This document shows positions 19,984 to 37,160 of a DNA stretch of 37,160 nt, piece by piece. The notes beneath the pieces are model-generated. The model saw only the letters and a list, made by a program, of their open reading frames with translations. It was not told the origin of the DNA and ran no database searches. Each line of letters opens with the position of its first letter. Positions within the stretch are counted from its first letter, which is position 1. The stretch is from positions 1 to 37,160 of the forward strand of contig SABV01000008.1 in the NCBI GenBank assembly GCA_009928855.1. Reading direction: 5' to 3'. Position numbers and translations under genes: made by a program. Source of the stretch: Erysipelotrichia bacterium (lineage in GTDB: Bacteria; Muiribacteriota; Ozemobacteria; Ozemobacterales; Ozemobacteraceae).

Positions 19984-21933
19984 TTAGAAGGTAATGGGCT
20001 GATCGACAACCGGAACAATGTCGGCACCAATAACTGTTACATAGCCTTCAGTCATTTCTGCGGGCATAGTTACAACTGCTTCACCAGCATCGTTAGTGGT
20101 AGCAACGTGAACATTTTCAACACCATTGGTGTAAACGCTTACACGAGCATTGCTGACAGCCTTGCCTGCTTCGTCGAGAACATTAACTTTAACAGTTACG
20201 TTTTCGTCGTTGCGGGTAGCTCTTGATTCAGCAGCAACGGTAACCGGGGCTTTGAAACGAACATTCAAAGTGCCATCACCATAAAGGTGCCACTGTTCAA
20301 GCATCATTACGCCAGATTTATTGGGTTCAGCAGTGTAGAGTTCGAGGCCTTTGATGATACCATTGATAAAGATACCGCCAGTGGTTTTGTAAACTTCGTT
20401 GGCAATATAGTTCTTGTTGAATTCAGCCTGAACGTGAATCGGGGGAACCCATTCCATGTTAGTGGTTGAACCGGCATAGGATACGGCACCAGCTGGTTTT
20501 TCGATGTTGCCTGAGCGCATCCACGCTTCACCGAAACCGGTAAAGTTTACAAAACGACCATTAACACAAGCTACATCCCAGATTACGGGCATCTGCCAAC
20601 CGTTGGCAAGTTTGCCAGCATCAGTGTTGCTGAATCTGGTAGTGCCCCAGCTTGTTCCTGAACCATGGCCCAGGTAATTGATGAGGCTGACGCCTTCGTT
20701 AACAGCGGCATGAACCATAGCTGCACTTGCGCCTGGATCGTAAGCTTTTACGATGTCGGTGAACATTTTGCCAAGAAGAGTGGTGCGGATTTCTTCGATA
20801 TAAGCGTAATCTTTAGGATTACCTTCAGCCGAACCAATACCAAGACCTCTGGTATACCAGGCCTTGTTGGTGGTGGGGAAACGTTCGTAGTTTACGAACT
20901 TGGCAACCTGATAGGCAACTTCTTCTGGAGTATTGGCAGAGAGGCGGCTGATGATTGCATCCGGAACATGATCGTCACCGGCGAGTTTTACGTAGCAGGG
21001 GTCAGAGTCGGCGCGTTCTTTAACGCCCTTGTTAGTTGGGATCTGTTCAGCATCGCCAACGAGCATTACGTGAGTCATGCCACCCTGGTTAAATTCATCC
21101 TGAATGAAAGCTTTAACTTCAGTATTGGTTTTACCAACTTCAGTCATGGGCACCATTTTTACTTCAATGCCACATTTCTTTTTCCAGTCGATGAAAGGCT
21201 TCATAGAATCCATGAATGCATCATGGCAGAGGATCAGGAGGCGGCCATTTTCGTCAAGACGAGGAAGACGAGAGGTTGCCTGCTTGAAATTTACGAAAGT
21301 GTTTTTATAGATTGGTTCAAAAACTTTGCTGATCGGGCCGGATTTTGTTATTACATTTTTAGAAGCCTGATCGTCAGAAGCAAGAGAGATCTTAATTCTT
21401 TTGTGAATTCTGAGTTTGTTTTTGATCGGGTTATACTGAACGGGGTTAACGATCAGATTGACGCCACGAACTTCACGGAAAATAAAAGGTTCGCCCATTT
21501 TCACGAGGTCTGCATCTGCAGGATACCAGGTGTCGGCGCTGTAAACTTCGCCAAAATTATAGGGAACATCAGCAGGATTGATATTGCGGGTAAAGTTGCC
21601 TTTGCTGGGCACGATACGTGCGTCGATATCAATGATTTCTGATTCAAGGCTGTTAACTGTGAATACAGGACGACGAGCGGGGTCTACCATGACCATTGCA
21701 GTATATCTTGGAAGAGTCGGCGCATCTTTATCATACGAAATTGATGCTTCGGGTGCGGTGACTTCAAGGGCTTTAGCGCCAAGAACCTGAGTTTCGCTGA
21801 AATTGACTTCGGGACAATCAATTTCGAGAGTGGTTGCATAACCACGAGATTCACTTACGCTGACACCGGCGGCAAATGCCGCACCAGAACTCAGCATACA
21901 AAGAGCCAGGAACAAAGTATTAAAACGTTTCAA
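19984..21933 (-). CDS. Secreted C25 (gingipain-like) cysteine protease
   Basis: The 649-residue product carries a Sec signal peptide (MKRFNTLFLALCMLSSGAAFA), a gingipain-type propeptide (about 25-215) and a caspase-like C25 catalytic domain (about 225-520). Catalytic His423 lies in NYLGHGSG and Cys456 in WDVACVNGRF, as in gingipains. A C-terminal Ig-like domain (about 565-649, KVNVLDEAGKAVSNARVSVYTNG) ends the chain without a recognisable type IX sorting domain. The start is TTG, backed by a perfect AGGAGG six bases upstream; a TATAAT promoter lies behind it. Arg and Gly codons are mostly CGT and GGT near the start, unlike neighbours with many AGA and CGC, suggesting high expression. It is a single-gene unit with its own promoter and terminator. 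Probably an abundant extracellular or surface protease for protein degradation or maturation. Confidence 0.92.
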   Translation of the reverse strand: MKRFNTLFLALCMLSSGAAFAAGVSVSESRGYATTLEIDCPEVNFSETQVLGAKALEVTAPEASISYDKDAPTLPRYTAMVMVDPARRPVFTVNSLESEIIDIDARIVPSKGNFTRNINPADVPYNFGEVYSADTWYPADADLVKMGEPFIFREVRGVNLIVNPVQYNPIKNKLRIHKRIKISLASDDQASKNVITKSGPISKVFEPIYKNTFVNFKQATSRLPRLDENGRLLILCHDAFMDSMKPFIDWKKKCGIEVKMVPMTEVGKTNTEVKAFIQDEFNQGGMTHVMLVGDAEQIPTNKGVKERADSDPCYVKLAGDDHVPDAIISRLSANTPEEVAYQVAKFVNYERFPTTNKAWYTRGLGIGSAEGNPKDYAYIEEIRTTLLGKMFTDIVKAYDPGASAAMVHAAVNEGVSLINYLGHGSGTSWGTTRFSNTDAGKLANGWQMPVIWDVACVNGRFVNFTGFGEAWMRSGNIEKPAGAVSYAGSTTNMEWVPPIHVQAEFNKNYIANEVYKTTGGIFINGIIKGLELYTAEPNKSGVMMLEQWHLYGDGTLNVRFKAPVTVAAESRATRNDENVTVKVNVLDEAGKAVSNARVSVYTNGVENVHVATTNDAGEAVVTMPAEMTEGYVTVIGADIVPVVDQPITF

Positions 21934-23448: not shown

Positions 23449-26403
23449 TTATTTGTGGGTGAGAATATATCTTCCATCCCACCCTTCAGGTGGCGGAGCT
23501 TCCTTGTATTCCTGGCAGCGTTTGATATAGGTAGCGCTGGGGCCATCATTTGGCCAGCGACTCAAAATTTCTTCAAAAGTAGCGATCGCTTCATCCCATT
23601 TTCGCTCCAGATGTAGCTGAATAGCTCTGTCATAAAGTTCAGCAAGTTCAAACCAGCCAAAAGGTTCTTTGCCTTTTTCGCTCACCAGCTCAAAAACTTT
23701 TACCGGCTCTTTTTTACCTTTAACAGCAAGAAAATCTAGAAATCTTCCGGTTATTACATGTTTAACCCGCTGAAAAGTCGCGTCACTGACCATCATCATC
23801 GTGCCATATTCCTTGTTGGCCCCTTCCAGTCTTGACGCCAGATTTACACCATCGCCCATACAGGTAAAATTCATCTGTGCCTTATTTGAGCCCATATAGC
23901 CAACAACCACATTGGCAGTATTTACGCCAGCTCTGGCAGCAACTCGCGGCAGGCCTCTTTTCGCCCAGCCGATCTGCAATTCATTGATTTTACGCTGCAT
24001 GGCCAAGGCGCACAAGCAGGCTCTAACTGGGTGATCATCCTGCTGTTTCGGAAAGTTCCAGAATGCCATTACAGCATCTCCGATAAATTTGTCGAGGGTT
24101 CCACCGTATTCAAACAGCAGATCAGTCATTGCACCAAGATACTCGTTGAGAAGAATTACGAGTTCTTCGGGCGTAAGAGCTTCAGAGATAGAAGTAAAGC
24201 CGGCCACGTCAGAAAAGAAAATCGTCAATTCAACTTTGTCACCACCCGGTTTGACAAGTTCGGGGTTGTCTAGCATGTATTGAACGACATCTGCGGCGAC
24301 GAAACGCGAAAACATATCTTTGGTCGTCTGAGCACGGGCGCGCTGACGAATATAATTCGTCAACGTATCCAAGGCCCATATTAGCGGGTAAGCAACAACG
24401 AGAGATGAAAAATTAAAAAGCTGGCGACCCACATGATAAGATTCGAAAGCCTGCCAGAAAGCCCCGGCAACAAAAGCCAAAGTAAGAAACGCCCCTGTTA
24501 CCGGAGAAAGTATATCAAGCAGAAAACCCAGAAGGAGGCAGGAAAGAAAAAGCGCAAAAATGGTGTGCCAGGCATTCGGATGTTTTATATAGCGCTGTTC
24601 AACAATATTCAGAATGGCATTGGCATGAATCTCGACCCCCATCAGGGGATCTTTTTGAACCATGAACGGGGTATCCAGATTAAGGGGTGTGGGATAAAAG
24701 TCAAAATCGCTCAATTCAAAAGGCCCTGCGATCATAATCTTGCCACCCTTGTTGTTGCCGTAAGACAAAGTACGGTTATGAGCAAATGCGGCTTTTAACT
24801 TCTTATTGGGGTTCTGGGCATAAAAACTCTCAAGCGTTTTTTTATCGAGGCATTCAAATAAAGAAACTGATTCAATAGCCGGTTTGCCCATTTTGCCTTT
24901 AACCGTAGAGCCCGCGAAGTCAAGAATCATTCTTCCCTGTGCGTTAACGGGAATTTCAAGATCATTTATTTTTAAAGGGCCCTTAAAAGCTCCCCGCGCA
25001 AAATCGGGGTAAATTCTCTTCAGTTCATCCTGCATTGCCTTCTCGTAGTAGTTTTCATTCTTTTTTGCATCGAGAGCGAGCATGGCAACCAGCAGATTGA
25101 ATGATGGCATAAGACGTTTTTTGTCTTCATCAGCAACAAACAGTGGCACTTCTGTTACATAGCTTTTGTTGCCGGTGCTGATATCTATCATGGCAACTCT
25201 GGTGTTGCTCTTCACAAAATTGTTCAGAGGCAATATTTGACGAGTTCTGGTCTGCAATATTCCAGAACCAGAAACCTGGTGGGGCTGATAACCGCCAGTA
25301 TCAGAGCTCGCAGTGTCGCTGTCCTCGACGATATGCTCCTCTTCAATTTTGGTATGAGCCGCCAGAACTATTGCGCTGGAAGACGAAGCAATGACAGCCT
25401 CAAGGTTCTGGTCTACGGAGGGTTCTTTTTGCCCCTGCAGGACAAAGTCGAAGGCAATTACCCCGGCAGGCTCCACAAGATATTCTCTGGGCAGACCGGG
25501 AGTAGTCATAAGAAAAACAATCGACATCACCGTATTTTTTTTGGGGAAAAGGCTGATCTTGAGCGAAAAGTCTGCGGTGCCAAGCCCGGTTAGAATATTT
25601 TGCCAGCGTTCAAGCAGAACCCGCGGTGCTTGCTCATCAGACTTCGAAGCTGCAGAATCATCCTCTTCATCAATTGATTCATCAGGAAAAACCTGCTGAT
25701 AAACCTCTTCGCTCGTCCAGTCTGTCATCAAGGTGGGCAAAATCAAGGGGTTTCGCCCACCGGCGAGCACCTTAAAAGCGTTCTGCCCTTTTGGAAGCCA
25801 GAACTGGCCCTCTGCCTGCATCAACACGTTCAACCCCGGTCTTTCTGGGGCTGCTTTAAAACAGTCTCTGACCTGACGGCTCATCGAGCGCCACTTTTCT
25901 TGATTGAACGGGTCACTATCAGCCATTTTTAGGGTTTCTGTGCCATCAAGAAAACCCGACCATTCATTAAAAGAAGATCTTATTGGAAGATCTCTGACAT
26001 TCGAGAACAGGCCGATATCCAGACGAAAAATCTCAAGTTTTTGGGCTCTGACAGAAGTTGATCTCTCGGCAAGCTGTGGATTACCCAGCAATGAAAACAT
26101 CGATGCGAATTCTGTGCGATCCGGGTTTTTACCGATAAGTTCAGAGGTGGCCTGATCTTTTTTGACAATGACAATCTGATTATTGGTTTTGGGAAGCTGG
26201 TAACCAAACTGAAAAATAAGGGCATTCAGATAGTTGTCTAAACCGCGAAAAAAACCGCCGGCAGCCAGAAGAAACGAGACAAAAGCGCAACAAAAACCAA
26301 AAATCAAACCGGTGCGATATTTATCAGGGCTTTTTCCTGCAGTTTTGGCAATCGGCGAGAATCCCAGAAACGACTTCAACTTTTCCCGAAAACCAGCGCT
26401 CAT
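23449..26403 (-). CDS. CHASE2-domain class III adenylate/guanylate cyclase
   Basis: A receptor-type cyclase of 984 residues. An N-terminal membrane span (about 32-52) leads to a large extracytoplasmic CHASE2 sensor. Three spans (about 625-700) return the chain to the cytoplasm. The cyclase domain (about 720-905) has both metal-binding aspartates (FFSDVAGFT and FIGDAVMAFWN), a substrate-binding Lys in DKFIGDAV and the N-x3-R pair in GDGVNLASRLE, so it should be active. A final TPR-like tail (WDEAIATFEEIL) is common in this family. The sensor contains two acidic low-complexity inserts (DESIDEEDDS; EEEHIVEDSDTASSD). ATP is the likelier substrate, but residue evidence is not decisive. AGAGG precedes the ATG, and it lies 18 bp after the GH57 gene, suggesting cotranscription. 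Confidence 0.93.
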   Translation of the reverse strand: MSAGFREKLKSFLGFSPIAKTAGKSPDKYRTGLIFGFCCAFVSFLLAAGGFFRGLDNYLNALIFQFGYQLPKTNNQIVIVKKDQATSELIGKNPDRTEFASMFSLLGNPQLAERSTSVRAQKLEIFRLDIGLFSNVRDLPIRSSFNEWSGFLDGTETLKMADSDPFNQEKWRSMSRQVRDCFKAAPERPGLNVLMQAEGQFWLPKGQNAFKVLAGGRNPLILPTLMTDWTSEEVYQQVFPDESIDEEDDSAASKSDEQAPRVLLERWQNILTGLGTADFSLKISLFPKKNTVMSIVFLMTTPGLPREYLVEPAGVIAFDFVLQGQKEPSVDQNLEAVIASSSSAIVLAAHTKIEEEHIVEDSDTASSDTGGYQPHQVSGSGILQTRTRQILPLNNFVKSNTRVAMIDISTGNKSYVTEVPLFVADEDKKRLMPSFNLLVAMLALDAKKNENYYEKAMQDELKRIYPDFARGAFKGPLKINDLEIPVNAQGRMILDFAGSTVKGKMGKPAIESVSLFECLDKKTLESFYAQNPNKKLKAAFAHNRTLSYGNNKGGKIMIAGPFELSDFDFYPTPLNLDTPFMVQKDPLMGVEIHANAILNIVEQRYIKHPNAWHTIFALFLSCLLLGFLLDILSPVTGAFLTLAFVAGAFWQAFESYHVGRQLFNFSSLVVAYPLIWALDTLTNYIRQRARAQTTKDMFSRFVAADVVQYMLDNPELVKPGGDKVELTIFFSDVAGFTSISEALTPEELVILLNEYLGAMTDLLFEYGGTLDKFIGDAVMAFWNFPKQQDDHPVRACLCALAMQRKINELQIGWAKRGLPRVAARAGVNTANVVVGYMGSNKAQMNFTCMGDGVNLASRLEGANKEYGTMMMVSDATFQRVKHVITGRFLDFLAVKGKKEPVKVFELVSEKGKEPFGWFELAELYDRAIQLHLERKWDEAIATFEEILSRWPNDGPSATYIKRCQEYKEAPPPEGWDGRYILTHK

Positions 26404-26421: not shown

Positions 26422-28008
26422 TCAGCTGCGATATATGCGGTAATCCATCTCAGGAAAAATATTATCACGACGTTCTACTTCTCGCAGCCACTTTTCGTTA
26501 ATTTTATCGCCAATAATATCTTCATAAAGTTTAGTGAATCGGAAAGTATGATCACGAGTGCGCTTATGCGCATACTCGACCGTGGTTCCCGTTTTCATTA
26601 TAAAAGCCCAGTCAGAGGCCTGCAACAGCATCAGCTCACGCGCGGCCTGGTTCAAAGCTCTGGCTGGCAGACCTGCAGCATCAGGGAACTTGTCGGCAAG
26701 CTCTATCATTCTTTGAGAAGCCTTGTGAATATGCGGATATATCCAGGCATTGCTTTCATCGAGCCAGAATTCGCTGTAGCCCTTATGGCCCCATGAAGAC
26801 AGCGATGGCGTTGCCTTCTGATTTTCAGGATATTCGCGAATATAATCAGAAGGGGTGGCAAGTTCGACCACAGAGCTTTCGAGAGCCGTTTTTCTGAGCA
26901 AAAAATGTATAAATTCGGGGCCCTCATACCACCAATGACCAAAAAGTTCGCAATCGTAAGGCGAAACAACTATGGGCATGCGGTCCATCGTCTCGCCAAG
27001 AAGCTTCACCTGGCGCTCTCTGGAACGGATAAAATGACCGGCGTGCACTGCAACCCTCGCCATCGCTTCCTGATAGTTATATGGCTGCTTTTCGGCGCCA
27101 TCCCTTGAGGTTATTCGATGGTATTTGATGCCCGTATTAAGCCTGTGACCAGACTCATGAATATAAGGACGAATATAATCAAACTCCAGATCATAGCCAA
27201 TATCCCGGTAAAATTCACGATAAACAGGATCTCCAGGGTATCCCTCGTGGGACGACCACACCTGACGGCTGCTTTCGACATCGCGACCAAAAGCAAGCAC
27301 TCCAGACGGACATTCAACCGGCGCGTACACACCAAATGCCGGCCTTGGGTCGGCAAAAAGAATACCATGCGTGTCAGTAAAAAAATACTTTATACCAAAT
27401 TCTTTGAGAATCTGGTCGTCGCCGGGGCTGTAGGCGCACTCAGCCAGCCAGATTCCATTGGGCTGGCAGTCAAAATGTCTCTGATAGTCGATTACGGCCA
27501 TCTCAATCTGAGCCCTGACAGCCGGTCTGAAGTCATTTATCAATGGCAGAAAAGCATGAGTTGCACAGCAAGTGATAATCTCAAGCACCCCGGCATCCTG
27601 AAAACGCTTAAAGGCAGAAACCAGATTTCCCTGGTAATACTCAAGAACGCTGCGGATGCGCCTGAATTTTTCGCGATAGATCAAAGCAGTAGGCTGAAAC
27701 TCAGGCTGCCAACGCGTTCTATCGACTTCCCGCTCAGAAAGTTCTTCAAGTCGGGCCAGATGAGCTGAATACCGGGTCATTAAAAGTTCGTCTGCCAGCA
27801 TATTCAGCAATGGCGGAGTTAACGACATGGTAATTCTGAAATGAACCCCGTCAGCAAGAAGTTTTTCGTAAACATCGAGTAATGGAATATAAGTTTCGGT
27901 GATAGCTTCAAAAAGCCACCGCTCTTCCATCATGTCGGGATATTCGGGATGTCGAACAAATGGAAGATGTGCGTGCAATACAATGGAAAGACAGCCATTT
28001 CTTTTCAT
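26422..28008 (-). CDS. GH57 1,4-alpha-glucan branching enzyme (DUF1957 type)
   Basis: GH57 branching enzymes cut an alpha-1,4 glucan and reattach the piece as an alpha-1,6 branch, as in glycogen synthesis. The 528-residue length fits the Thermus/Thermococcus branching enzymes. The substrate motif HAHLPFVRHPE opens the chain. The probable nucleophile is Glu190 in IWLAECAYSPG, and the probable acid/base is Asp352 in SPYDCELFGHWWYEGP; both positions are close to those of the characterised Thermococcus enzyme (Glu183, Asp354). The DUF1957 C-terminal helical domain (SSWGHKGYSEFWLDESNAWIYP) is present. It follows the DUF4912 gene by 31 bp and precedes the cyclase by 18 bp. No glycogen synthase lies in the window. 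Predicted cytoplasmic. Confidence 0.94.
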   Translation of the reverse strand: MKRNGCLSIVLHAHLPFVRHPEYPDMMEERWLFEAITETYIPLLDVYEKLLADGVHFRITMSLTPPLLNMLADELLMTRYSAHLARLEELSEREVDRTRWQPEFQPTALIYREKFRRIRSVLEYYQGNLVSAFKRFQDAGVLEIITCCATHAFLPLINDFRPAVRAQIEMAVIDYQRHFDCQPNGIWLAECAYSPGDDQILKEFGIKYFFTDTHGILFADPRPAFGVYAPVECPSGVLAFGRDVESSRQVWSSHEGYPGDPVYREFYRDIGYDLEFDYIRPYIHESGHRLNTGIKYHRITSRDGAEKQPYNYQEAMARVAVHAGHFIRSRERQVKLLGETMDRMPIVVSPYDCELFGHWWYEGPEFIHFLLRKTALESSVVELATPSDYIREYPENQKATPSLSSWGHKGYSEFWLDESNAWIYPHIHKASQRMIELADKFPDAAGLPARALNQAARELMLLQASDWAFIMKTGTTVEYAHKRTRDHTFRFTKLYEDIIGDKINEKWLREVERRDNIFPEMDYRIYRS

Positions 28009-28039
28009 ATGCTATGGTTTAAGTGTTTAAGCAACGGCT

Positions 28040-29845
28040 TCAGCTGTTGCCAAGATTTATTTTAGCCTTTATAACGCGGGTTTTACCGGTAAAGGGGTCG
28101 GTGGCGACCAGTTCAATCTCACGTTCAGCATTAAATGGTAAGGCAAGACGCAGACTATACGAACCATCAGGGCGCACATTTACCGGTTCTCCCATAAAGG
28201 TCAGAAGACTTCCTGCAGCAACCTTTCCATAAATTATTATGTCAGCAGCAGCGCAGATAAACAGGTTTTCAGTTTCTCCGAAGGGTTTTTCAGGGCTGCT
28301 GACAGATTGAGAAAAGGGCCGATCTGCAGACGTCGGGAGTGAGGACGATGGCATGAATGCTGCAGCAACATGCGATGCCGGCAGGTAAAGATGTTGAGAT
28401 GCCGGCAAACCGAAAGAAGAAACTTCAGCGATAGCGGGTCTATTAATTGCAGGTGGTGCCAGCTCAGGCTTTAAAGGATTTTGGCCAGCCAGCAGTTCAG
28501 ATGAACCTGATCTGGGCAATGGTTCTCCTGAGAGTGAAGAAGAATAAACGGCCTTTGGATCTGTAAGGCGAACAATGCCGGGTGTAGGAACAAACGGTGG
28601 CAACGAATTATCGCTTACTGGCGGGGTATCTTCTGCATGATCTTTTGTTTTTGGTGTGGGCAATACCGGGTCTGCCCATCTTTCGGCAACCTGGTCTGGC
28701 GGTGTCTGCACAAGATTTGAAAGAGCAATAAAAGTATAGCCTTCTGTGGGGCTGTGCATGCCCAGTTCTACCTGATACACGGTCTGGGCATCTTCGAGAT
28801 AAAGATACCAGTTGCGGGCGTGCTCAGAAAGCTTTATTTCCTGGGAATGACCATGAGAAACATCATGTAATCTTAAAACAAAATGGGAATGAGCGAATTC
28901 AAAAATACCGACTTCAAGCTCAAGGCGCTTCATTTCAATTTGCGGGAGCTCCCAGTAAGCATAGGCCCAATGGGGGTCGCGAATCTGCATAACAATTCTT
29001 TTTTCGCCGTATTCTACAGGCAGATCACCAGTGAGTTCATCTTCGCTCACCGGAATCGAAAAATCGTGTTCTGGCTGAGAAAAAATGGGTATCTCCATGG
29101 TCGTTTTTAACGACGCATGTTTTTTGCGACGGTCTTTTTCGATCTGCTCAGCCTTTTTTGAAGTTTTTTCGTTATCTGCAACGCCCAGCGGCTTGAAAGG
29201 AATCGCAACAGGCTGATCAATAACCTCTGCGCCTTTGCGGTTTCGGGGGGCAGGTACATTTTCGGTTTTTTTGCCAAACATGCGGTCGAGACGTTTCGCA
29301 CCGTTTTTTTTGCCCGAAGGCTCGACTGGAGCAGCTTGGGCGCTTTTACTTACAGATTCAGGCAACTGGGTCTTTATAGCGGGCAGATGAGGGGTTTCAA
29401 TTTTATTTGTCTTACTGACAGACTTTGCCACGGCCTTCTTTTTTGCGGCCTTTGGCTTTAACGACTCTTCGGCAGCTGCTTTTTCGGGTGCGGGTTTAGC
29501 GCTACGGGCCTTTTTTGCAACCGGGCTGACAGGGGGGTTCTCTTTCTTTGGTGGTTTAGAGGTCTTGGCAGGTTTAGCAGTCTTGGCGGGTTTATCTGTC
29601 GTCGCTATTTTTGGTGTTTTATTAGACTTCTTTGGGTCAGCGACTTTAGCAGGTTTTGCAATTTTCGGCGCTTTTGTTTCTGACTGGGGTTTTTTATCTG
29701 GAGTTGCGGCTGTTTTTGCGAGAACTTCAATCAACTGGTCTTTGGAAAGTTTGGATCGACCTTTGATATTAAGCTTTTGAGCAAGATCGTACAGTGACTG
29801 ACGGGTCAGTTGTTTAAGTTCATCCGCGGTAAAACCGGTATTCAT
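28040..29845 (-). CDS. Rho_N/SAP-like plus DUF4912 protein with Lys/Pro/Ala-rich linker
   Basis: The N-terminus (ELKQLTRQSLYDLAQKLNIKGRSKLSKDQLIEVL) is a Rho_N/SAP-like helical domain, known elsewhere to bind nucleic acid. A long basic Lys/Ala/Pro tract (about 45-230) follows. The DUF4912 domain (about 275-400) has the hallmark VMQIRDPHWAYAYWELP and resembles a carbohydrate-binding beta sandwich. A Pro-rich region and a C-terminal beta domain (IIIYGKVAAGSLLTFMGEPVNV...) complete the chain. DUF4912 genes are often next to DUF1957 GH57 genes, as here (31-bp gap), so a glucan-related role is likely. The ORF track begins at TTG 29857; ATG 29845 with GGAG six bases upstream is the better start (601 residues). 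Its combination of a putative DNA/RNA-binding head and a glucan-linked domain is unexplained. Confidence 0.88.
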   Translation of the reverse strand: MNTGFTADELKQLTRQSLYDLAQKLNIKGRSKLSKDQLIEVLAKTAATPDKKPQSETKAPKIAKPAKVADPKKSNKTPKIATTDKPAKTAKPAKTSKPPKKENPPVSPVAKKARSAKPAPEKAAAEESLKPKAAKKKAVAKSVSKTNKIETPHLPAIKTQLPESVSKSAQAAPVEPSGKKNGAKRLDRMFGKKTENVPAPRNRKGAEVIDQPVAIPFKPLGVADNEKTSKKAEQIEKDRRKKHASLKTTMEIPIFSQPEHDFSIPVSEDELTGDLPVEYGEKRIVMQIRDPHWAYAYWELPQIEMKRLELEVGIFEFAHSHFVLRLHDVSHGHSQEIKLSEHARNWYLYLEDAQTVYQVELGMHSPTEGYTFIALSNLVQTPPDQVAERWADPVLPTPKTKDHAEDTPPVSDNSLPPFVPTPGIVRLTDPKAVYSSSLSGEPLPRSGSSELLAGQNPLKPELAPPAINRPAIAEVSSFGLPASQHLYLPASHVAAAFMPSSSLPTSADRPFSQSVSSPEKPFGETENLFICAAADIIIYGKVAAGSLLTFMGEPVNVRPDGSYSLRLALPFNAEREIELVATDPFTGKTRVIKAKINLGNS

Positions 29846-29927
29846 TCCACTCTCCAACTCTCACAAAGGAAATATGTACACGAGCACCTGCAGACATGAT
29901 AACAGAAAATTAAAAATTATGCTCGGA

Positions 29928-30038
29928 CTAATTATCGTCAAGAAAACTGTCGATGAGAGCGGGCAAAAACACGAGAAACACATAATAATGAAGAGCCATA
30001 AACAGGCCAAACACGTAACCGAAAATCTGAAAAAACAT
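29928..30038 (-). CDS. Putative 36-residue hydrophobic membrane mini-protein
   Basis: This ORF is too short for the track. On the minus strand ATG 30038 is followed by 35 further codons and TAG. The product starts MFFQIFGYVFGLFMALHYYV, continues with a second hydrophobic stretch and ends in an acidic tail (LIDSFLDDN). Residues about 2-30 would form one membrane helix. A strong ribosome binding site, GAGGAG, lies eight bases upstream and overlaps the TGA stop of the secreted TPR gene, only 12 bp away, so translation would be coupled. The tail is acidic with no lysine, unlike type I toxins. Function unknown; possibly a regulator of an adjacent membrane protein. The Phe/Leu/Val/Tyr richness, the RBS and the spacing are the evidence; no homologue is claimed. 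Confidence 0.55.
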   Translation of the reverse strand: MFFQIFGYVFGLFMALHYYVFLVFLPALIDSFLDDN

Positions 30039-30050
30039 TTTTCTGACTCC

Positions 30051-31193
30051 TCAGTCTACAAGCCTTTCAATTTTCAGCTGCACCCTGATATTCGAAAAAA
30101 GAGTTACCGAACGGCGGCCGTCTCCATAAAGGTCCTGGATGTAGCCTGACGTCTGGTTGACTTCGGTAAAAACGAGCGAATATTTGACACCGGCAGTTGC
30201 GAAGCTGAGGTTTTTCTGATCAACCCCTTCTTCTGCGGTAAACATAAAATCACGTTGCTCGCTGCCACCACCAAGGGTGATCGAGAAAACCTCAAATCTG
30301 TCAGCCGGCACCCCGGGGCGCTCATTGATGGCTCGAAGCGTGAATGCTGCGCCATCAAGCTCTCTCGAGATCGTTCCGGCATTGCGAAATTCAAAGCTGT
30401 CGTCAAAAATCATAGTTTCTTCTGCCGGCAGCACTTCATCTAGAGCATTGGCAGCCTTTACCGGCTCAACATAAGAGGTTGAACGCTGAGCGAAAAGTTC
30501 AAGCTTGTCTTCTGCCTGATGCGCCTGGTCAGAATCAGGGTATATAATAATGATCTGCTGCAGCGTCTCGCGAGCTTTTTCGGTATCTCCCCGCAGCTCA
30601 AGCAAGGTAGCCAGCTTTAACAGTCGGTCGGGCTCGCGTTCTTTCGCCTCAGACAAAAACGTCAAATATTTTATGGCGTCCTCAATCAACCCGGCCTCAT
30701 CTTTAGCCATGAGCGATGGCATCAGACGAAGGCTGGCCAGATAATCATCGATAGCGGCCCTTATGTTACGGCGTTTATAAAGCACCATAGCCCGGTCAAA
30801 CAGCCTGGTGGCCTCTTCTGTCTGAGCAAGCTCAGGCAGGTGTTCAAGTTTCATTATAGCTCGACTGGCCAGCAGATCAGGCAATTTGCCTTTCATGGCC
30901 AGTTTGTAATGGTATGAGGCAAACTCAAAACGCCTGACGCCCTCGAGACACTCCCCCACCCTGAAATGAAGCCTGGCTTTTACTTCTTCGCTGGCTGTCA
31001 TAGCCATAGCTTCATAATAAAAAATCAACGCTTCGCGATAGTCGTTTCCCTTAAAAAGCTCTTCTGCCCGAGACAGGCATTTTTGCAGACTGTATGGAAC
31101 AGTAATGCCATTGTCTTCGCTGTTAACGGCAGCGTCTACTGTTCCGGAGACTGCGGCCGCCACCATGCAAAAAGCCAGAAAAGTCTTTTTCAT
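30051..31193 (-). CDS. Secreted TPR protein with C-terminal beta-rich domain
   Basis: The ORF track begins at 31250, but the sensible start is the internal ATG at 31193. It opens a Sec signal peptide (MKKTFLAFCMVAAAVSGTVDA) and leaves a 22-bp gap to the upstream gene. The 380-residue product has TPR-like helical repeats from about 40 to 240 (for example 'AEELFKGNDYREALIFYYEA' and 'GDTEKARETLQQIIIIYPDS'). A beta-rich domain of about 110 residues follows (DDSFEFRNAGTISREL ... SNIRVQLKIERLVD). It is predicted periplasmic or surface-exposed. The SD (GTGAG) is weak, which fits coupling to the upstream gene. It sits between the TIM-barrel gene and the 36-residue membrane ORF in the long minus-strand cluster. 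Function unknown; a scaffold for envelope complexes is plausible. Confidence 0.82.
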   Translation of the reverse strand: MKKTFLAFCMVAAAVSGTVDAAVNSEDNGITVPYSLQKCLSRAEELFKGNDYREALIFYYEAMAMTASEEVKARLHFRVGECLEGVRRFEFASYHYKLAMKGKLPDLLASRAIMKLEHLPELAQTEEATRLFDRAMVLYKRRNIRAAIDDYLASLRLMPSLMAKDEAGLIEDAIKYLTFLSEAKEREPDRLLKLATLLELRGDTEKARETLQQIIIIYPDSDQAHQAEDKLELFAQRSTSYVEPVKAANALDEVLPAEETMIFDDSFEFRNAGTISRELDGAAFTLRAINERPGVPADRFEVFSITLGGGSEQRDFMFTAEEGVDQKNLSFATAGVKYSLVFTEVNQTSGYIQDLYGDGRRSVTLFSNIRVQLKIERLVD

Positions 31194-31215
31194 CAGCAAC
31201 TCACATGAAGAGAGA

Positions 31216-32340
31216 TTAAAAGGACCCGGGGAAATTATCGGGCAAAACATAGCGAGCGATCAAATCGCTATTTTTAGTATTCGGAACCGTTTCTAGAAGG
31301 AAGAACTTCTCGTGCCCGGCTTCAAGATCTTTTCGCAATTCTTTGAGCAGGGGCACCAGGTTTAAGTCGCCATTTTGAAACAGACCCAGGTTAAAACAAG
31401 CATTGCGGCAAGACTCATAATAGTCATGCAAAGCCTTATTGAAGTTTTTCAGACAGCGCTCCTGCCAGGCTTCATCGTTATCAGAAAGACTCTGAGAATA
31501 TTCTTTTTTGGCACCCGCATAATTTTTGAGAGCCTGCTCCATATCGTCGCGGCGAGCGCCCCATTTATCGAGCCCCGGAAGCACCTGTTGCAGAATCACA
31601 ATTGAAATATTATCAGCAAATCTTCGATAGGTTTCAATAATGTCATCGCGTTCAAGATGCGCTACGCCAACGTTATAGGCCAAACCACAACCGAATTCTT
31701 TCGCCATTTTCTGAAAAACAGACGCGGAAATGCCGCCGTTTCTGAGGTGCAAGCGAATATTATTCACCTTTGCCACTTCGTTGATAGACTTAAGAGCTTT
31801 TTTAAACCTGTTTTCGGCCTGCGGATCAAGAAAGATTCCTGGTTCTGAAACAGGCACAATAATGTGGCCAACCTTAAATTTTGCGGCCATCTCAATTATT
31901 GGCAAGCAATCTTCAACGCTCAGCGTGTGGTATGCAGGGTTTCCCTCTATGGCGGCGGGCAAAGACAGGTAGCATGGTCTGAAATGCACAAGCCTGACGG
32001 GCTTTTTAACGGCAGTTTTTCGGACCGGAACTTTTTCTTCTGGTTTGTCTGATGCGGGTGGTTCAGGGGGGAGTTCATAATAATGCGGCACATACTCAGG
32101 CAAAGTTATGATGGTCTTGATGCCAAGAGTTTCGGTTTTTTGCAGCATGTCTTCAAAAGCTGCCGCATTTTTTTTCAGACCCGGGTCATTGACACGCAAA
32201 TTGATAAAATGCAATTTGCCACGCCATTTTGCAAGAGTGCCGTTTCTGCTGATTGATATAGGCGGCATAAGCGGGTCTTGCGAACCACCGATTCCCTGTT
32301 CTACATAGCCAAGAAAAAAAGGAGTGTCAGAGTTTTTCAT
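31216..32340 (-). CDS. Xylose-isomerase-like TIM-barrel protein, apparently degenerate
   Basis: The middle and end of this 374-residue protein follow the sugar-phosphate isomerase/AP-endonuclease-2 TIM-barrel pattern. Visible steps include TLSVEDCLPIIEMAAKFKVGHIIVPVSE, then RFKKALKSINEVAKVNNIRLHLRNGG, then FGCGLAYNVGVAHLERDDIIETYRRFADNISIVILQQ. In active members the strand ending 'LHLRNGG' normally carries a metal-binding Glu and the next a D-x-G-H motif. Here these read R/N and N-x-G-x-x-H, so metal binding and catalysis are doubtful. A Pro/Lys-rich insert (PPEPPASDKPEEKVPVRK) interrupts the N-terminal third. There is no signal peptide, so it is cytoplasmic. It begins 35 bp after the PhnD-like gene. 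Family assignment is moderate; function is unknown. Confidence 0.75.
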   Translation of the reverse strand: MKNSDTPFFLGYVEQGIGGSQDPLMPPISISRNGTLAKWRGKLHFINLRVNDPGLKKNAAAFEDMLQKTETLGIKTIITLPEYVPHYYELPPEPPASDKPEEKVPVRKTAVKKPVRLVHFRPCYLSLPAAIEGNPAYHTLSVEDCLPIIEMAAKFKVGHIIVPVSEPGIFLDPQAENRFKKALKSINEVAKVNNIRLHLRNGGISASVFQKMAKEFGCGLAYNVGVAHLERDDIIETYRRFADNISIVILQQVLPGLDKWGARRDDMEQALKNYAGAKKEYSQSLSDNDEAWQERCLKNFNKALHDYYESCRNACFNLGLFQNGDLNLVPLLKELRKDLEAGHEKFFLLETVPNTKNSDLIARYVLPDNFPGSF

Positions 32341-32375: not shown

Positions 32376-33266
32376 CTAGTAGTTAATAGTCTGCGAGTCA
32401 GAAGCATTCGCCAAAGGTTTAAAAACAGAGCGCACTTCCTGTTCTGAAACAAATTTTTCTGTGCCACGCAATTCTTTAAGAATCTTCAGGTATTTTATTC
32501 CATCCGGGTCTTCGTGCATTAGCAGCATTGCAGATTCAATTTTTGTTTTAAGCACTGTCTCCAAATCTTCCCGGATAACGACAGGATCATTCGGAATAGG
32601 CCCGGTACGTGCTATTACACGCAAATTTTCGGCACTTTCACTTACCAGATTTGACGAGAACACAGCCGCCGCATCATAAGTGCCATCTAGAACCCCAAGA
32701 ATACTGCTGCGATGGCTCTGAGTAAAAACTACGCGGCTGAAAAATTCAAGGGGCTTAATGCCGTTTTGTGTCATAAACATATTTGGGAAATAGAAACCGG
32801 AGCCGGAATAGCGATCAACGTAGGCAAAAATGTGACCACGCAGGTCGTGAATTGTATTAAACTCACTTTTCTGGCGCACGACAATCTGGCCATCATAGAG
32901 AACGCTGCCGAATTGCACCGGTCGGCATATTACCCGCCAGTTATTTTCGGCTTTCAACTTTTCAAAAGATGCGTGCGAAAACCATGCCATATGAATTTTT
33001 TTCAATTCAAGAAGACGTGCCAGGCTTTCGTAGTCAGAGACGGCAACGAAATGAACAGGTCTTGCCAGCTTTTTTTCAAGATACAGGCAAACAGGCTGCA
33101 TTTGTTCACGAAGCTTGTCGGGCTGCAAAAAGGGTATAACTCCCATGAGAACAGGTGTGGCGCTATCAATTACGGGCTCCAGGGTCAATGGTGCCGGACC
33201 GCCTGCAATAAACCACCCGGCAACAATAAGCATCATCAAAACTACGGCAGAAAAAATAATTTTCAT
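32376..33266 (-). CDS. PhnD-like periplasmic substrate-binding protein
   Basis: The 296-residue protein has one N-terminal hydrophobic segment (IIFSAVVLMMLIVAGWFIAGG), which may be a signal peptide or an uncleaved anchor; there is no lipobox Cys. The body fits the phosphate/phosphonate-binding (PhnD/PstS-like type II) fold. It opens with VLMGVIPFLQPDKLREQMQPVCLYLEKKL, passes DYESLARLLELKKIHMAWFSHASF, carries a YVDRYSGSGFYFPNMFM loop, and ends with VLDGTYDAAAVFSSNL and IARTGPIPNDPVVI. Such proteins bind oxyanions or small organic ligands for ABC uptake or to feed sensors. No ABC permease or ATPase is present. Its ATG overlaps the stop of the MFS-HEAT gene by four bases, tying it to that transporter instead. 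Ligand unknown. Confidence 0.88.
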   Translation of the reverse strand: MKIIFSAVVLMMLIVAGWFIAGGPAPLTLEPVIDSATPVLMGVIPFLQPDKLREQMQPVCLYLEKKLARPVHFVAVSDYESLARLLELKKIHMAWFSHASFEKLKAENNWRVICRPVQFGSVLYDGQIVVRQKSEFNTIHDLRGHIFAYVDRYSGSGFYFPNMFMTQNGIKPLEFFSRVVFTQSHRSSILGVLDGTYDAAAVFSSNLVSESAENLRVIARTGPIPNDPVVIREDLETVLKTKIESAMLLMHEDPDGIKYLKILKELRGTEKFVSEQEVRSVFKPLANASDSQTINY

Positions 33267-36040
33267 ACTCGAACACTCTCATATATTTTCAAATTTGCGA
33301 GTCTTTGTTTCGCCTCGTCAACACTTGAGCAGTTAACATCAAGCATACGTTCTACCGCCATTTCTATTGTTTTTTGCGATGTCATCACTATTGAAGCATC
33401 GAGCAATGGCAGAATCTGCAATGCAAGTTTTCGCCCGGCACGCGCCTCAATATATTCAGCAGCCATAGCCTTTGCAAAGGCTTTTCCCAAAAAAAGCTCT
33501 TTCATGCTCTTAATCATTGTCGCCGGCTCTACAGACATGCAAGCCAGCATTTTAAGCGCCGCAAGAACCCGTTTTTGCCAAAGCTCACGGGTGTTACACG
33601 GCCAGTCGGAATCTATCAAAAAAGATAACTCGCACCAGAGAGCCGACAACATGGGGTTAAGAGCTGCAAAAAATTGCATATTTTCGGCAGGTTTTTCGAG
33701 AGCGCCACCGGCAAGGGCGTGTGCCAAAGGCGTCAGGTCAGGCAGGTTGTTTTCGTGCTCAATGATAACAGCATTTATTATTGGTGCCAGGTCAAGTTCA
33801 ACACTGTCGCCAGGCATCATTTTCACGCATAGTTTCATATATTCAATCGTTTTTCTATCTGCCGTTTCGAGTACAGCAACCAGATTTTTGCGTTTTTCAG
33901 GGCTGTCAACACAGAGTATGGCAGCCAATAAATCATGGCTTTCCTGGTGCCGGCCCGATCGCAGTTTAACAGATAATTTTCGGCGTTCGTCTGCAGTAAT
34001 ACCCGTAAGCAGGCGACTTATGCAACTGATGTTTTCGCGGGCACTCGCAGCAAGTAATTCTGAAGCTTTTACGGCGGTCTGAGCGTTAGGGTGAGCAAGC
34101 ATATTTTTTAATACCGACAATGCGGCAGGAGTATGAATTCTTGCCAGAGCCGTGGCCGCATTGCCAGCGACCGCAACATTGTTTTCGGCGGCTAACGAGC
34201 CAAGAGCCGGCACGAATAATGGCAGACCAAGTTCACCCATTACCGCTGCAGCAGACGCTCTCATCAACTCCCGACTATCGCGTGCCATTTCCACAAGTTT
34301 GCGCATGGCTGACTCAAGACTCTTCTGTTGCCGTGTCAATCTGACAATGGTTATAACCGCACTCGCACAAACCCGATGATGACCGTGCTCAAGAAAGCCA
34401 AGAAGATTTTCTTCACCGATCACGTTCAGGTGGGCTTTGCCCAGTGCCTCAATAATATCAGAACGCAAGCGATCGTCAGTGGTTTCACGGATGATTTTAA
34501 AAATATGACTGGCAGATGAATCAGGAGAAATTTGTATTAACGTGCGGGCAACAACAGTAAGACAACGGGAATCTGCCTCGTGCTCAAACATCGGTTCGAG
34601 CATGGGCACCGCATAGTTTGCGGGTAGAACCGCCGCAGCCTCGATTGCACTGGCTCGCACCCTGGGATTTTCATCGGCCAAAAGCTCTTTTAGTTGATCC
34701 AGGCGTTCTTGAATGTTCAGGAATCTGAGGGAAGCAACCTGATCATCTATCTGGCTCTCTTCTTTTCTTATAAAAGCCTTACGGAGAGTTGCAAGATAGG
34801 CCCGATCGAGCAGCACATGTATGCCGGCCATAACAAAATACGTTGCAGCAGCAATAACGAACAGAGAGTCATGGCCGACTCTGCCGCGCGCAATCAGCAG
34901 AAATCCGGCAACGACGGCACTTGATACAGAGCAGGCAATAGACATGTCACGACGGTAGTAAACCCTGTTTTTTTGTGGAATGGCACCCATAAGAATGGTG
35001 GTCGCCGGAACAGTAAAATTTTTACTGTTCAGCAGCACCAGAAACTGCACTGCGGCGATGACGGCAAATTTGAGACTAAACGAGGCGAGTATGCATAAAA
35101 GGGTCAGAATTATCGGCATAAAAGCCAAAACCCTGCCAATCGGAAATTTGGAAAAAACTCTATTCATGACAAAGGTTTGCAGGGCAATTACAGCAAAATC
35201 AGTAGCGGCACCAAAGACGCCCATAAAAGACGCAAGATCATTTGTAGAAGTAAAAAAGCTGCTGATCGAGGCTGCGAAAAGAAAATCAACGAGATATTTA
35301 TTGAAAATAATAAGAAATGAAGAAATAATAAGCAATCGCGCCAGCGGATGTTGCATGGAGCTTTCGTCTATCGCTTCAGATGCGGCGTCTTTGCTGGGAG
35401 AAGGGGTTTCTGATTCTGCAAGCCTGGCGTCTTCTGCCGGTTTAAGCATTCTCAGAATAACGGCAGCAAGAATTACCAGAAAACCATTGATAACAAAAAG
35501 GCCTTTCAGACCGAGAAAATCGAGAATAAACTTCAGCAACAGGCCACTGATAATAAAGCCAAGACTTCCGGCAGCATAAATTACCGGCAACAGGCGTTTC
35601 GACTCGCCAATACCGAGAAAATGATTCAGCATAGCTGTAAATGCCTGGTTGGTAGTCAAATCCACAATCATTGTTACAATAAAAAAACCAACGAGCAGCA
35701 TGACTGATTCTGTCGGAAACAACCAGGCGGCGCCAAATGACAGCAGAGCCGAGGGGAAACTCATCAACGAAAGCAGCCAATGACCTTCTTTGCCGACAAT
35801 TCTGGTCATGAACTGAAATTGAATGGCTATAAAAGCGGCATTAACAATCAGGTAAACCCACGGAAGTGATGTTGCACCAGCCTTTTCGAGAAAAATGGAC
35901 AAAACGGAGAGATAAAGAAGATTGTTAGCGGCTTTTAACAACAAAAAAAATACCGAAAGAAGATTCGCTATATTTTTTGGGGGCTGCAACACAAATGACG
36001 CGGAATCATTAGTAAAGCCCTCTGCAGAAACACCCGTCAT
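33263..36040 (-). CDS. MFS/ATP-ADP-translocase-like transporter fused to HEAT repeats
   Basis: Residues about 25-430 form 10-12 membrane spans resembling the major facilitator superfamily, especially the NTT/TlcC nucleotide-transporter branch (FFLLLKAANNLLYLSVLSIFLEKAG; GIGESKRLLPVIYAAGSLGFIISG; MGAIPQKNRVYYRRD). Residues about 470-920 are helical HEAT-like repeats (NPRVRASAIEAAAVLP; RELMRASAAAVMGELG; AVAGNAATALARIHTP), giving 925 in total. The HEAT part should lie in the cytoplasm and bind a partner or regulate gating. The ATG overlaps the stop of the HAMP gene by four bases; GAGG in that gene serves as its ribosome binding site. The downstream PhnD-like gene overlaps in the same way. The transported compound is unknown; MFS-like is surer than NTT. 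Confidence 0.85.
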   Translation of the reverse strand: MTGVSAEGFTNDSASFVLQPPKNIANLLSVFFLLLKAANNLLYLSVLSIFLEKAGATSLPWVYLIVNAAFIAIQFQFMTRIVGKEGHWLLSLMSFPSALLSFGAAWLFPTESVMLLVGFFIVTMIVDLTTNQAFTAMLNHFLGIGESKRLLPVIYAAGSLGFIISGLLLKFILDFLGLKGLFVINGFLVILAAVILRMLKPAEDARLAESETPSPSKDAASEAIDESSMQHPLARLLIISSFLIIFNKYLVDFLFAASISSFFTSTNDLASFMGVFGAATDFAVIALQTFVMNRVFSKFPIGRVLAFMPIILTLLCILASFSLKFAVIAAVQFLVLLNSKNFTVPATTILMGAIPQKNRVYYRRDMSIACSVSSAVVAGFLLIARGRVGHDSLFVIAAATYFVMAGIHVLLDRAYLATLRKAFIRKEESQIDDQVASLRFLNIQERLDQLKELLADENPRVRASAIEAAAVLPANYAVPMLEPMFEHEADSRCLTVVARTLIQISPDSSASHIFKIIRETTDDRLRSDIIEALGKAHLNVIGEENLLGFLEHGHHRVCASAVITIVRLTRQQKSLESAMRKLVEMARDSRELMRASAAAVMGELGLPLFVPALGSLAAENNVAVAGNAATALARIHTPAALSVLKNMLAHPNAQTAVKASELLAASARENISCISRLLTGITADERRKLSVKLRSGRHQESHDLLAAILCVDSPEKRKNLVAVLETADRKTIEYMKLCVKMMPGDSVELDLAPIINAVIIEHENNLPDLTPLAHALAGGALEKPAENMQFFAALNPMLSALWCELSFLIDSDWPCNTRELWQKRVLAALKMLACMSVEPATMIKSMKELFLGKAFAKAMAAEYIEARAGRKLALQILPLLDASIVMTSQKTIEMAVERMLDVNCSSVDEAKQRLANLKIYESVRV

Positions 36041-37160
36041 TTATCTTTTTCCTCTTTGTCGCAATCAAAGCCAGGCTTTTCCCATTCGCGGCTCCAGATG
36101 TCGTCCATCATCCGGTGCTTTTCGAGGGTGTTGAGCATTTCATTAAATGCCTTAGAAGCATCAGACAGCTCATCATCACCTCTTACTTCGAGTCTGTGAC
36201 TGACGATTCCGCTTGAGACATTTTTTATCGCTGCAACAAGAGCAGTAATAGAGTCAGCCAGAGGGCGTGACATAAAAAAGCCCAGTGCTACGGCAAGCGC
36301 GAAGGCAATAAGAAGCATAATCGCGAGGTCTAACAGCAGATGGTTAAGAAATTCAAGAACCAGCCCCTGCGGCCTGGCAACAAAAAGATAACCTTCAAAT
36401 TCAGGAACCGGCGCCAGCGTACCCAGATAGGTGACGTCAGCAAGGTTTATCAATGCACTCTCAGAAAATTTGCCAGACATTTCTGGCAGATGAATGCCTC
36501 GAAAACCTTCAGGCAGATTGCCCTGAGAAGAAATTAAACCACCGCCACGGTCAAGCAGCAACAGAATGTCGCTTTTTGCGATAGGAAAACCACCGATAAT
36601 TTCGTGAATACCCGGGCCAGCAACGCTGATAGAGCAGTTGATTACACCAACGACCCTGGCTTGGTCGACAAAATCAAAAACCGGAACCATCACAAAAAGC
36701 ATTTTTTGCTGATATTCAGCTGTCTCGTCAGCAACGAAAGCTGCCTTTCGGGTTGCAAGAACACGTAAAAAGCTCTGTGAAAAAACATCAGGAGATTTAA
36801 AATCTATATTTCGACTGCCAGAACCGGCCGATTCGTCTTTCTGGTTGCGAATAACCGTCAGCAGAGGTGCTCCATCGGAGGTATAGACAGTACAGCCAAA
36901 AAATATGCGCTGCTGTTCGAGGAACTCATTGATTACCGGAAGCTGCCGCAACCGGCTCATAGACTGTATTTCAGGGAGCTTAGCAATAGTATCGATCTGA
37001 CGGCGATAATTCTGAAACAATGAATCTATGCCATGCAAAAGACTGGCGGTGAGTGTTTTTTGTGAAGCGACAGTCTGCCTGAGCAGGTCAAGACGCACCT
37101 TTATCGCAACAGTCCCCCCGAGAAGAAGAAGCGGCAAAACTTGAATTATGCTATTTAAAA
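36037..37160 (-). CDS. HAMP-domain membrane sensor without output domain, N-terminus cut by window edge
   Basis: The reading frame stays open to the right edge, so the TTG used by the ORF track (37137) is not a trustworthy start; the true start lies outside. A membrane span (about IIQVLPLLLLGGTVAIKV) leads to an extracytoplasmic Cache-like sensor of about 230 residues (FFGCTVYTSDGAPLLTVIRN; VMVPVFDFVDQARVVGVINCSI). A second span (LLLDLAIMLLIAFALAVALGFF) and a HAMP linker (SRPLADSITALVAAIKNVSSG ... DDELSDASKAFNEML) follow. Only about 30 residues come after HAMP (MMDDIWSREWEKPGFDCDKEEKDK). No kinase, cyclase, GGDEF or methyl-accepting domain is present. Its stop overlaps the MFS-HEAT start. The signal may be passed by protein contact, for example to the HEAT domain next door; that is inference. 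Confidence 0.87.
   Translation of the reverse strand, partial: LNSIIQVLPLLLLGGTVAIKVRLDLLRQTVASQKTLTASLLHGIDSLFQNYRRQIDTIAKLPEIQSMSRLRQLPVINEFLEQQRIFFGCTVYTSDGAPLLTVIRNQKDESAGSGSRNIDFKSPDVFSQSFLRVLATRKAAFVADETAEYQQKMLFVMVPVFDFVDQARVVGVINCSISVAGPGIHEIIGGFPIAKSDILLLLDRGGGLISSQGNLPEGFRGIHLPEMSGKFSESALINLADVTYLGTLAPVPEFEGYLFVARPQGLVLEFLNHLLLDLAIMLLIAFALAVALGFFMSRPLADSITALVAAIKNVSSGIVSHRLEVRGDDELSDASKAFNEMLNTLEKHRMMDDIWSREWEKPGFDCDKEEKDK

Follow-up and report, generated by a model that had tools for sequence, protein, structure and literature searches.

A Cache-HAMP receptor lacking an output domain is paired with an NTT-HEAT-like predicted transporter, often with a PhnD-like binding protein, in Candidatus Riflebacteria

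A membrane receptor of the Cache-HAMP type that has no output domain (S), a putative transporter fused to a HEAT array (T) and a PhnD-like binding protein (P) are encoded together in a cassette that is real, conserved and apparently undescribed. Its core unit is the pair S-T, and P is an addition to it. The membrane half of T resembles the NTT (ADP/ATP carrier) transporters, and S seems to occupy the place that a cyclic-nucleotide-binding domain (cNBD) has in other NTT-HEAT genes. We lean slightly towards an explanation of the cassette in which a periplasmic ligand would act through P or S, the HAMP tail of S and the HEAT array upon the transporter.

Open reading frame (ORF) calls place S, T and P in tandem on the minus strand at the end of a 37,160-nt contig, the whole of which is the window analyzed here. 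The features of the locus are as follows.

36037 to 37160 (ORF 36037-37158, 5' open), minus strand: S, Cache-HAMP membrane receptor without an output domain (ORF and Pfam; complete homologues have about 385-435 amino acids)
36394 to 37062, minus strand: predicted periplasmic Cache-type ligand domain of S, residues ~33-255 (dCache_1, 1.2e-4, below cut-off)
36121 to 36276, minus strand: HAMP domain of S, residues 295-346 (PF00672, 1.8e-9)
36082 to 36120, minus strand: post-HAMP tail of S, the core of TLEKHRMMDDIWSREW, residues ~347-359, candidate output peptide (alignment, C-termini and identity)
36037 to 36040, minus strand: ATGA overlap of the S stop and the T start (sequence read directly)
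33263 to 36040, minus strand: T, predicted fusion of an NTT-like MFS transporter and a HEAT array, 925 amino acids, ATG start (ORF, Pfam and profile comparisons)
34766 to 35971, minus strand: NTT-like membrane domain of T, residues ~24-425 (match to NTT1 in the PDB; hhalign to the NTT family)
33281 to 34714, minus strand: predicted cytoplasmic HEAT-type helical array of T, residues ~443-920 (HEAT_2, 8.9e-17; predicted helix pairs)
33263 to 33266, minus strand: ATGA overlap of the T stop and the P start (sequence read directly)
32376 to 33266, minus strand: P, PhnD-like periplasmic binding protein, 296 amino acids, ATG start, with a predicted N-terminal membrane anchor at residues 1-29 (PF12974, 1.2e-56; hydrophobic N-terminal segment)

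Both ATGA junctions of the original prediction are borne out, while the range that it gave, 33263-37160, omits the P gene. It had also proposed extending the sequence past 37160; the window is the whole contig and the start of S falls outside the assembly, so that the missing N-terminus was estimated from relatives, at about 25-30 residues (the start of TM1). At 30 of 35 S-T junctions the S stop has an in-frame start no more than about 31 nt away, exact distances being biased because the script sought the start nearest to a 4-nt overlap. A plus-strand ORF of 456 residues that runs antisense to both T and P (32712-34082) appears to be a mechanical artefact. Downstream of P, at 26422-32340, are TIM-barrel, TPR, DUF4912/Rho_N and GH57 branching-enzyme genes, in an order that is kept within the genus and is not found behind the trio in the other genera examined; a gingipain-type peptidase C25 with its propeptide is encoded at 19984-21933.

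A search of 57 genomes with T gave homologues from most of the genera in its family and from further families, and tblastn and HMM searches of the T regions located S directly upstream of nearly all of them, with identities ranging between 66% and about 20%. S lies beside 37 T genes, upstream of 36 and downstream of one (L116), and these S-linked genes come from five families of Candidatus Riflebacteria and from one genome of another phylum. The latter (G227, one of two genomes sampled in that phylum) has S, T and P in the same order; a single-protein T search for related loci gave matches in Riflebacteria only. P follows T directly at about 21 loci, with overlapping T/P codons in many, and is absent from about 13 loci where sequence is available. 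S-T is therefore the core and P the addition. The trio is kept beyond close relatives, but the predicted unit of three has to be recast as a constant pair with P in only about two-thirds of cases. One T gene of the S-linked clade (L042:7157-9886) has neither S nor P adjacent, in a genome (G017) that holds several S-T pairs; comparison of T positions altered where S is lost showed three changes only, and no signal. The flanking genes vary by genus: in that of the window, FecR and hypothetical genes lie upstream, and elsewhere there are others. Neither a kinase nor an ABC permease, the upstream partners of S and P that would have refuted the original prediction, was identified when flanking genes of relatives were examined. 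A nucleoside-phosphorylase-like protein comes after P in one subclade (L044:3421-6306, L118:10760-13795 and L046:1-735), and in L044 and L118 it forms a fusion of about 1000 residues with a radical-SAM-like region. A nucleoside theme drawn from these PNP_UDP_1 genes was set aside, as they occur in one subclade only and two of the three are radical-SAM-like fusions.

Besides its HAMP domain, S has a weak dCache_1 match (22 bits), and S paralogues in related genomes exceed the dCache_1 cut-off at 49.3 and 45.1 bits. The stop codon of S lies 27 residues past HAMP (the prediction was about 30, with no output), homologues end similarly, and HAMP is followed by neither a kinase core nor an MCP signalling domain. 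The tail LEKxRxMDxIWxxxW, followed by the stop, is the best-conserved part of the protein: among 20 S sequences mean pairwise identity is 29% in the Cache domain, 44% in HAMP, 48% in the tail and 10% in the post-tail residues, and W355 is invariant in all 20 aligned sequences. A varying Cache domain joined to a kept HAMP and tail is the pattern of a variable input and a constant output. Because homologues stop at the same conserved tail, S is, judged by sequence, complete at its C-terminus and not truncated, and a cut or frameshifted kinase was rejected on that ground. All but one of the T-linked S proteins end about 5-25 residues past the hydrophobic-Trp pair that closes the post-HAMP helix; the exception, at L116, has Phe for the tail Trp. 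HAMP matches in unrelated genomes mostly end before an S-type tail, and the Trp is mostly absent from related Cache proteins of the same genus that are unlinked to T, and likewise from most of the S-like Cache proteins of L181:4710-7134 and its equivalents in L182-L186. Upstream of the S-like protein, L181 and L186 have a gene similar to calcineurin-type phosphoesterases. The AlphaFold prediction for S was poor (pLDDT 40), the input alignments for AlphaFold being of six close sequences.

The HEAT portion of T, predicted at about 450 residues, was confirmed as a HEAT-like array at residues ~443-920, where the AlphaFold model is usable (pLDDT ~75, with helix pairs at ~70-87 over most of it); the model of the membrane half has a pLDDT of about 35. 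The fusion named in the original prediction therefore stands, but its membrane half is better described as NTT-like than as generic MFS. In Pfam, MFS_1 is below cut-off. A profile of the membrane half found plant NTT1 as its only PDB match at E ≤ 1 (5.3e-7), and hhalign aligned the domain to NTT proteins of these genomes at 99.0% over 397 columns, in a comparison with no generic MFS control set; on these two results a generic MFS is the less likely identity. E-x-K and LAsFxGxF regions are common to T and NTT in the alignment, and the HEAT repeats stand C-terminal to the carrier, as in NTT-HEAT proteins. The T of the window and 15 homologues fall under the curated cut-off of TLC (PF03219) and match only MFS_1, and the alignment lacks the basic TM1 motif of NTT, K-P-x-R, in T. 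The S-linked T of L116 is over the TLC cut-off (27.3 vs 21 bits). Since its MFS half is closest to the NTT transporters, T may be regarded as an NTT-HEAT-like protein and a predicted transporter. A defence system was also considered and rejected, PADLOC giving only a weak HEAT match.

NTT-HEAT proteins are widespread and are found in Chlamydia among others. All loci of this study were searched with a cNMP-binding profile made from L090, and the domain was fused or encoded in the next gene for 20 of the 21 other intact NTT-HEAT genes examined, the single gene without it (L088) lying at a contig edge; Pfam confirmed the cNBD in all six cases tested. The same profile search found it in or next to none of the 37 S-linked T genes (at L041 a cNBD protein on the opposite strand, 973 nt away, is unrelated). 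It is because of this difference, 20 of 21 against none of 37, that S seems to take the place of the cNBD as regulatory input to an NTT-HEAT-like T, and it would appear that one HEAT-bearing carrier can have either of the two as its input. In an unrooted tree of 67 NTT-like domains the S-linked T proteins form one clade (support 100/98) beside the other NTT-HEAT proteins, the exceptions being L116, which is S-linked, long-branched and outside the clade, and L042, the clade member without S. At L116 the HAMP gene lies downstream of the TLC-positive NTT-HEAT gene, that is, in the usual position of the cNBD gene. The alternation amounts to one or two evolutionary switches only, and is therefore a strong pattern yet comprises few independent tests. 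The genome of the window holds both types, its second NTT-HEAT gene (L097:3636-7408, contig C242) being followed by a gene for a cNBD-GGDEF protein; the same pair is found in L123, which suggests that NTT-HEAT carriers are linked to c-di-GMP signalling. A CHASE2-adenylate/guanylate cyclase gene at window positions 23449-26403, about 6 kb from the trio, might supply cyclic nucleotide to the cNBD-type NTT-HEAT protein of this genome.

P belongs to the Phosphonate-bd family of Pfam, and the closest relatives with a solved structure are ArrX, a PhnD-like protein, PtxB, PhnD and AioX; that sensory PhnD-like proteins are among the closest relatives was missing from the earlier reading of P. In AioX and PhnD, tetrahedral oxyanions are held by Tyr, Tyr, Ser, Ser and His (PMC5908839), and the oxyanion ligand residues are present in P (Y79, Y124, S154, S156 and H185) and largely kept in its family. 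The predicted lack of an ABC partner is upheld, since PhnE was over cut-off in none of the 37 related genomes; on the same result we rejected the reading that P is an orphan whose ABC permease is encoded at a distance. P appears to be membrane-anchored through its N-terminal helix, which looks uncleaved, or through a lipobox, which is present in L044 and L046. That a membrane sensor can be driven by a PhnD-like protein has a precedent in AioX/AioS (PMC5908839). The sensory and PhnD relatives, the kept oxyanion residues and the lack of a phosphonate permease over cut-off in these genomes together make P fit a membrane-anchored co-receptor.

To the observed gene order, pair conservation, conserved tail, NTT relationship, cNBD alternation and orphan P we add a mechanism in which we infer the contact of S with T, the direction of signalling, the gating, the ligand and the substrate. 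S, T and P would form one membrane unit. P, tethered to the inner membrane on its outer side, would bind a periplasmic oxyanion or phosphate-bearing ligand and pass it on to S at the Cache domain; alternatively, S might bind a ligand itself. The signal would cross the membrane via the HAMP domain of S, whose short conserved post-HAMP helix would dock on the HEAT array and so switch the NTT-like transporter on or off; S would act on T from outside, as the cNBD presumably acts from inside on other NTT-HEAT transporters. Control of T by S gains from S-T pairing across the phylum, from the conserved HAMP tail and from the alternation with cNBD. These give strong comparative support to the originally proposed route from sensor through HAMP and HEAT to transporter, which needs revision in that S-T is a core with optional P and T is NTT-like and not a generic MFS. 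A further observation in favor of the S-T link is that an S-like Cache protein with the Trp tail, at L188:4068-6864, also adjoins a HEAT protein, one with C-terminal membrane helices and no MFS. Against the mechanism stand the S-T pairs without P, the L042 T gene without S, the missing KPxR and sub-cut-off TLC score of T, the small number of evolutionary switches behind the alternation, and the poor structure predictions for S and for the membrane half of T.

The main rival is that T is itself the sensor, a transceptor like UhpC, with occupancy of its MFS half causing the HEAT array to recruit a separate, unlinked cytoplasmic effector while S and P serve as tuning co-sensors. HEAT arrays are typical docking platforms, and the cNBD-GGDEF proteins beside non-S NTT-HEAT genes (L097, L123) raise the prospect that NTT-HEAT proteins feed a signalling enzyme; the S-T pairs, however, have no accompanying effector gene amid their varying neighbors, and S has no output of its own, so that the chain would require an unlinked partner. 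We regard this as unlikely, though a serious competitor. Somewhat less likely still is a binding-protein-dependent secondary importer, in which T receives its substrate from P, with S as a small membrane subunit or an assembly subunit, by analogy with TRAP and tripartite tricarboxylate systems. The position of P directly downstream of T, with codons overlapping in many loci, and its kept ligand site would suit such an importer, but P is missing from about a third of S-T loci, the constant pair is S-T and not T-P, S is by sequence a Cache-HAMP receptor, and we know of no PhnD-like protein that serves an MFS or NTT carrier. That the target of S is an unlinked kinase or some other partner, with S sitting by T for shared expression only, is very improbable: the usual targets of HAMP proteins are kinases, cyclases or phosphatases, and these genomes have many other HAMP proteins, but S carries no enzymatic or known docking domain, and neither its strict link to T nor the cNBD alternation is expected from co-expression alone.

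HAMP domains signal to kinases, cyclases, phosphatases and chemotaxis proteins, and direct control of a transporter by S would, if true, be a new kind of HAMP output. That HAMP receptor and cNBD alternate points to the HEAT arm as the regulatory port of NTT-HEAT proteins. Tentatively, and with rather less confidence than we place in the mechanism itself, S may stand for a class of receptors with a transporter as sole output, in which an NTT-type carrier has its HEAT arm driven by the 15-residue tail of a Cache-HAMP protein and an external ligand gates transport, with neither phosphorylation nor gene regulation involved. On that view the HEAT arm would be a general socket, fit for a cyclic-nucleotide sensor in the cytosol as well as for a transmembrane receptor.

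The original prediction knew of no named system of this makeup, and no paper combining the parts of S, T and P was found in the open-access literature (subscription journals lay outside this scope); T itself may be counted with a known class, as an NTT-HEAT-like protein. S-T-P is best placed as a variant of that class with a different regulatory partner, in an apparently undescribed combination. Among sensor-transporter pairs, UhpB-UhpC and DctA-DcuS are alike in that a transporter and a membrane sensor act as one unit, but there the transporter informs a kinase, whereas S, without output, would inform T. The phosphonate and phosphite ABC binding proteins PhnD and PtxB share the fold family and oxyanion ligands of P, which differs in having no PhnE partner over cut-off and in being apparently membrane-anchored. 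AioX-AioS and ArrX-ArrS likewise combine a PhnD-like binding protein that has no ABC transporter with a membrane sensor encoded beside it (PMC5908839), but S has no kinase, no response regulator is adjacent, and the neighbor is a transporter. NTT-HEAT fusions with or without a cNBD were described by Major, Embley and Williams in 2017, with their function left open (PMC5381601). They have in common with T an N-terminal NTT-like carrier, a C-terminal HEAT array and a regulatory partner that is fused or encoded in the next gene (PMC5381601); T differs in falling under the TLC cut-off without the basic TM1 motif, and in that its partner is not a cNBD but a transmembrane Cache-HAMP receptor, with or without the PhnD-like protein.
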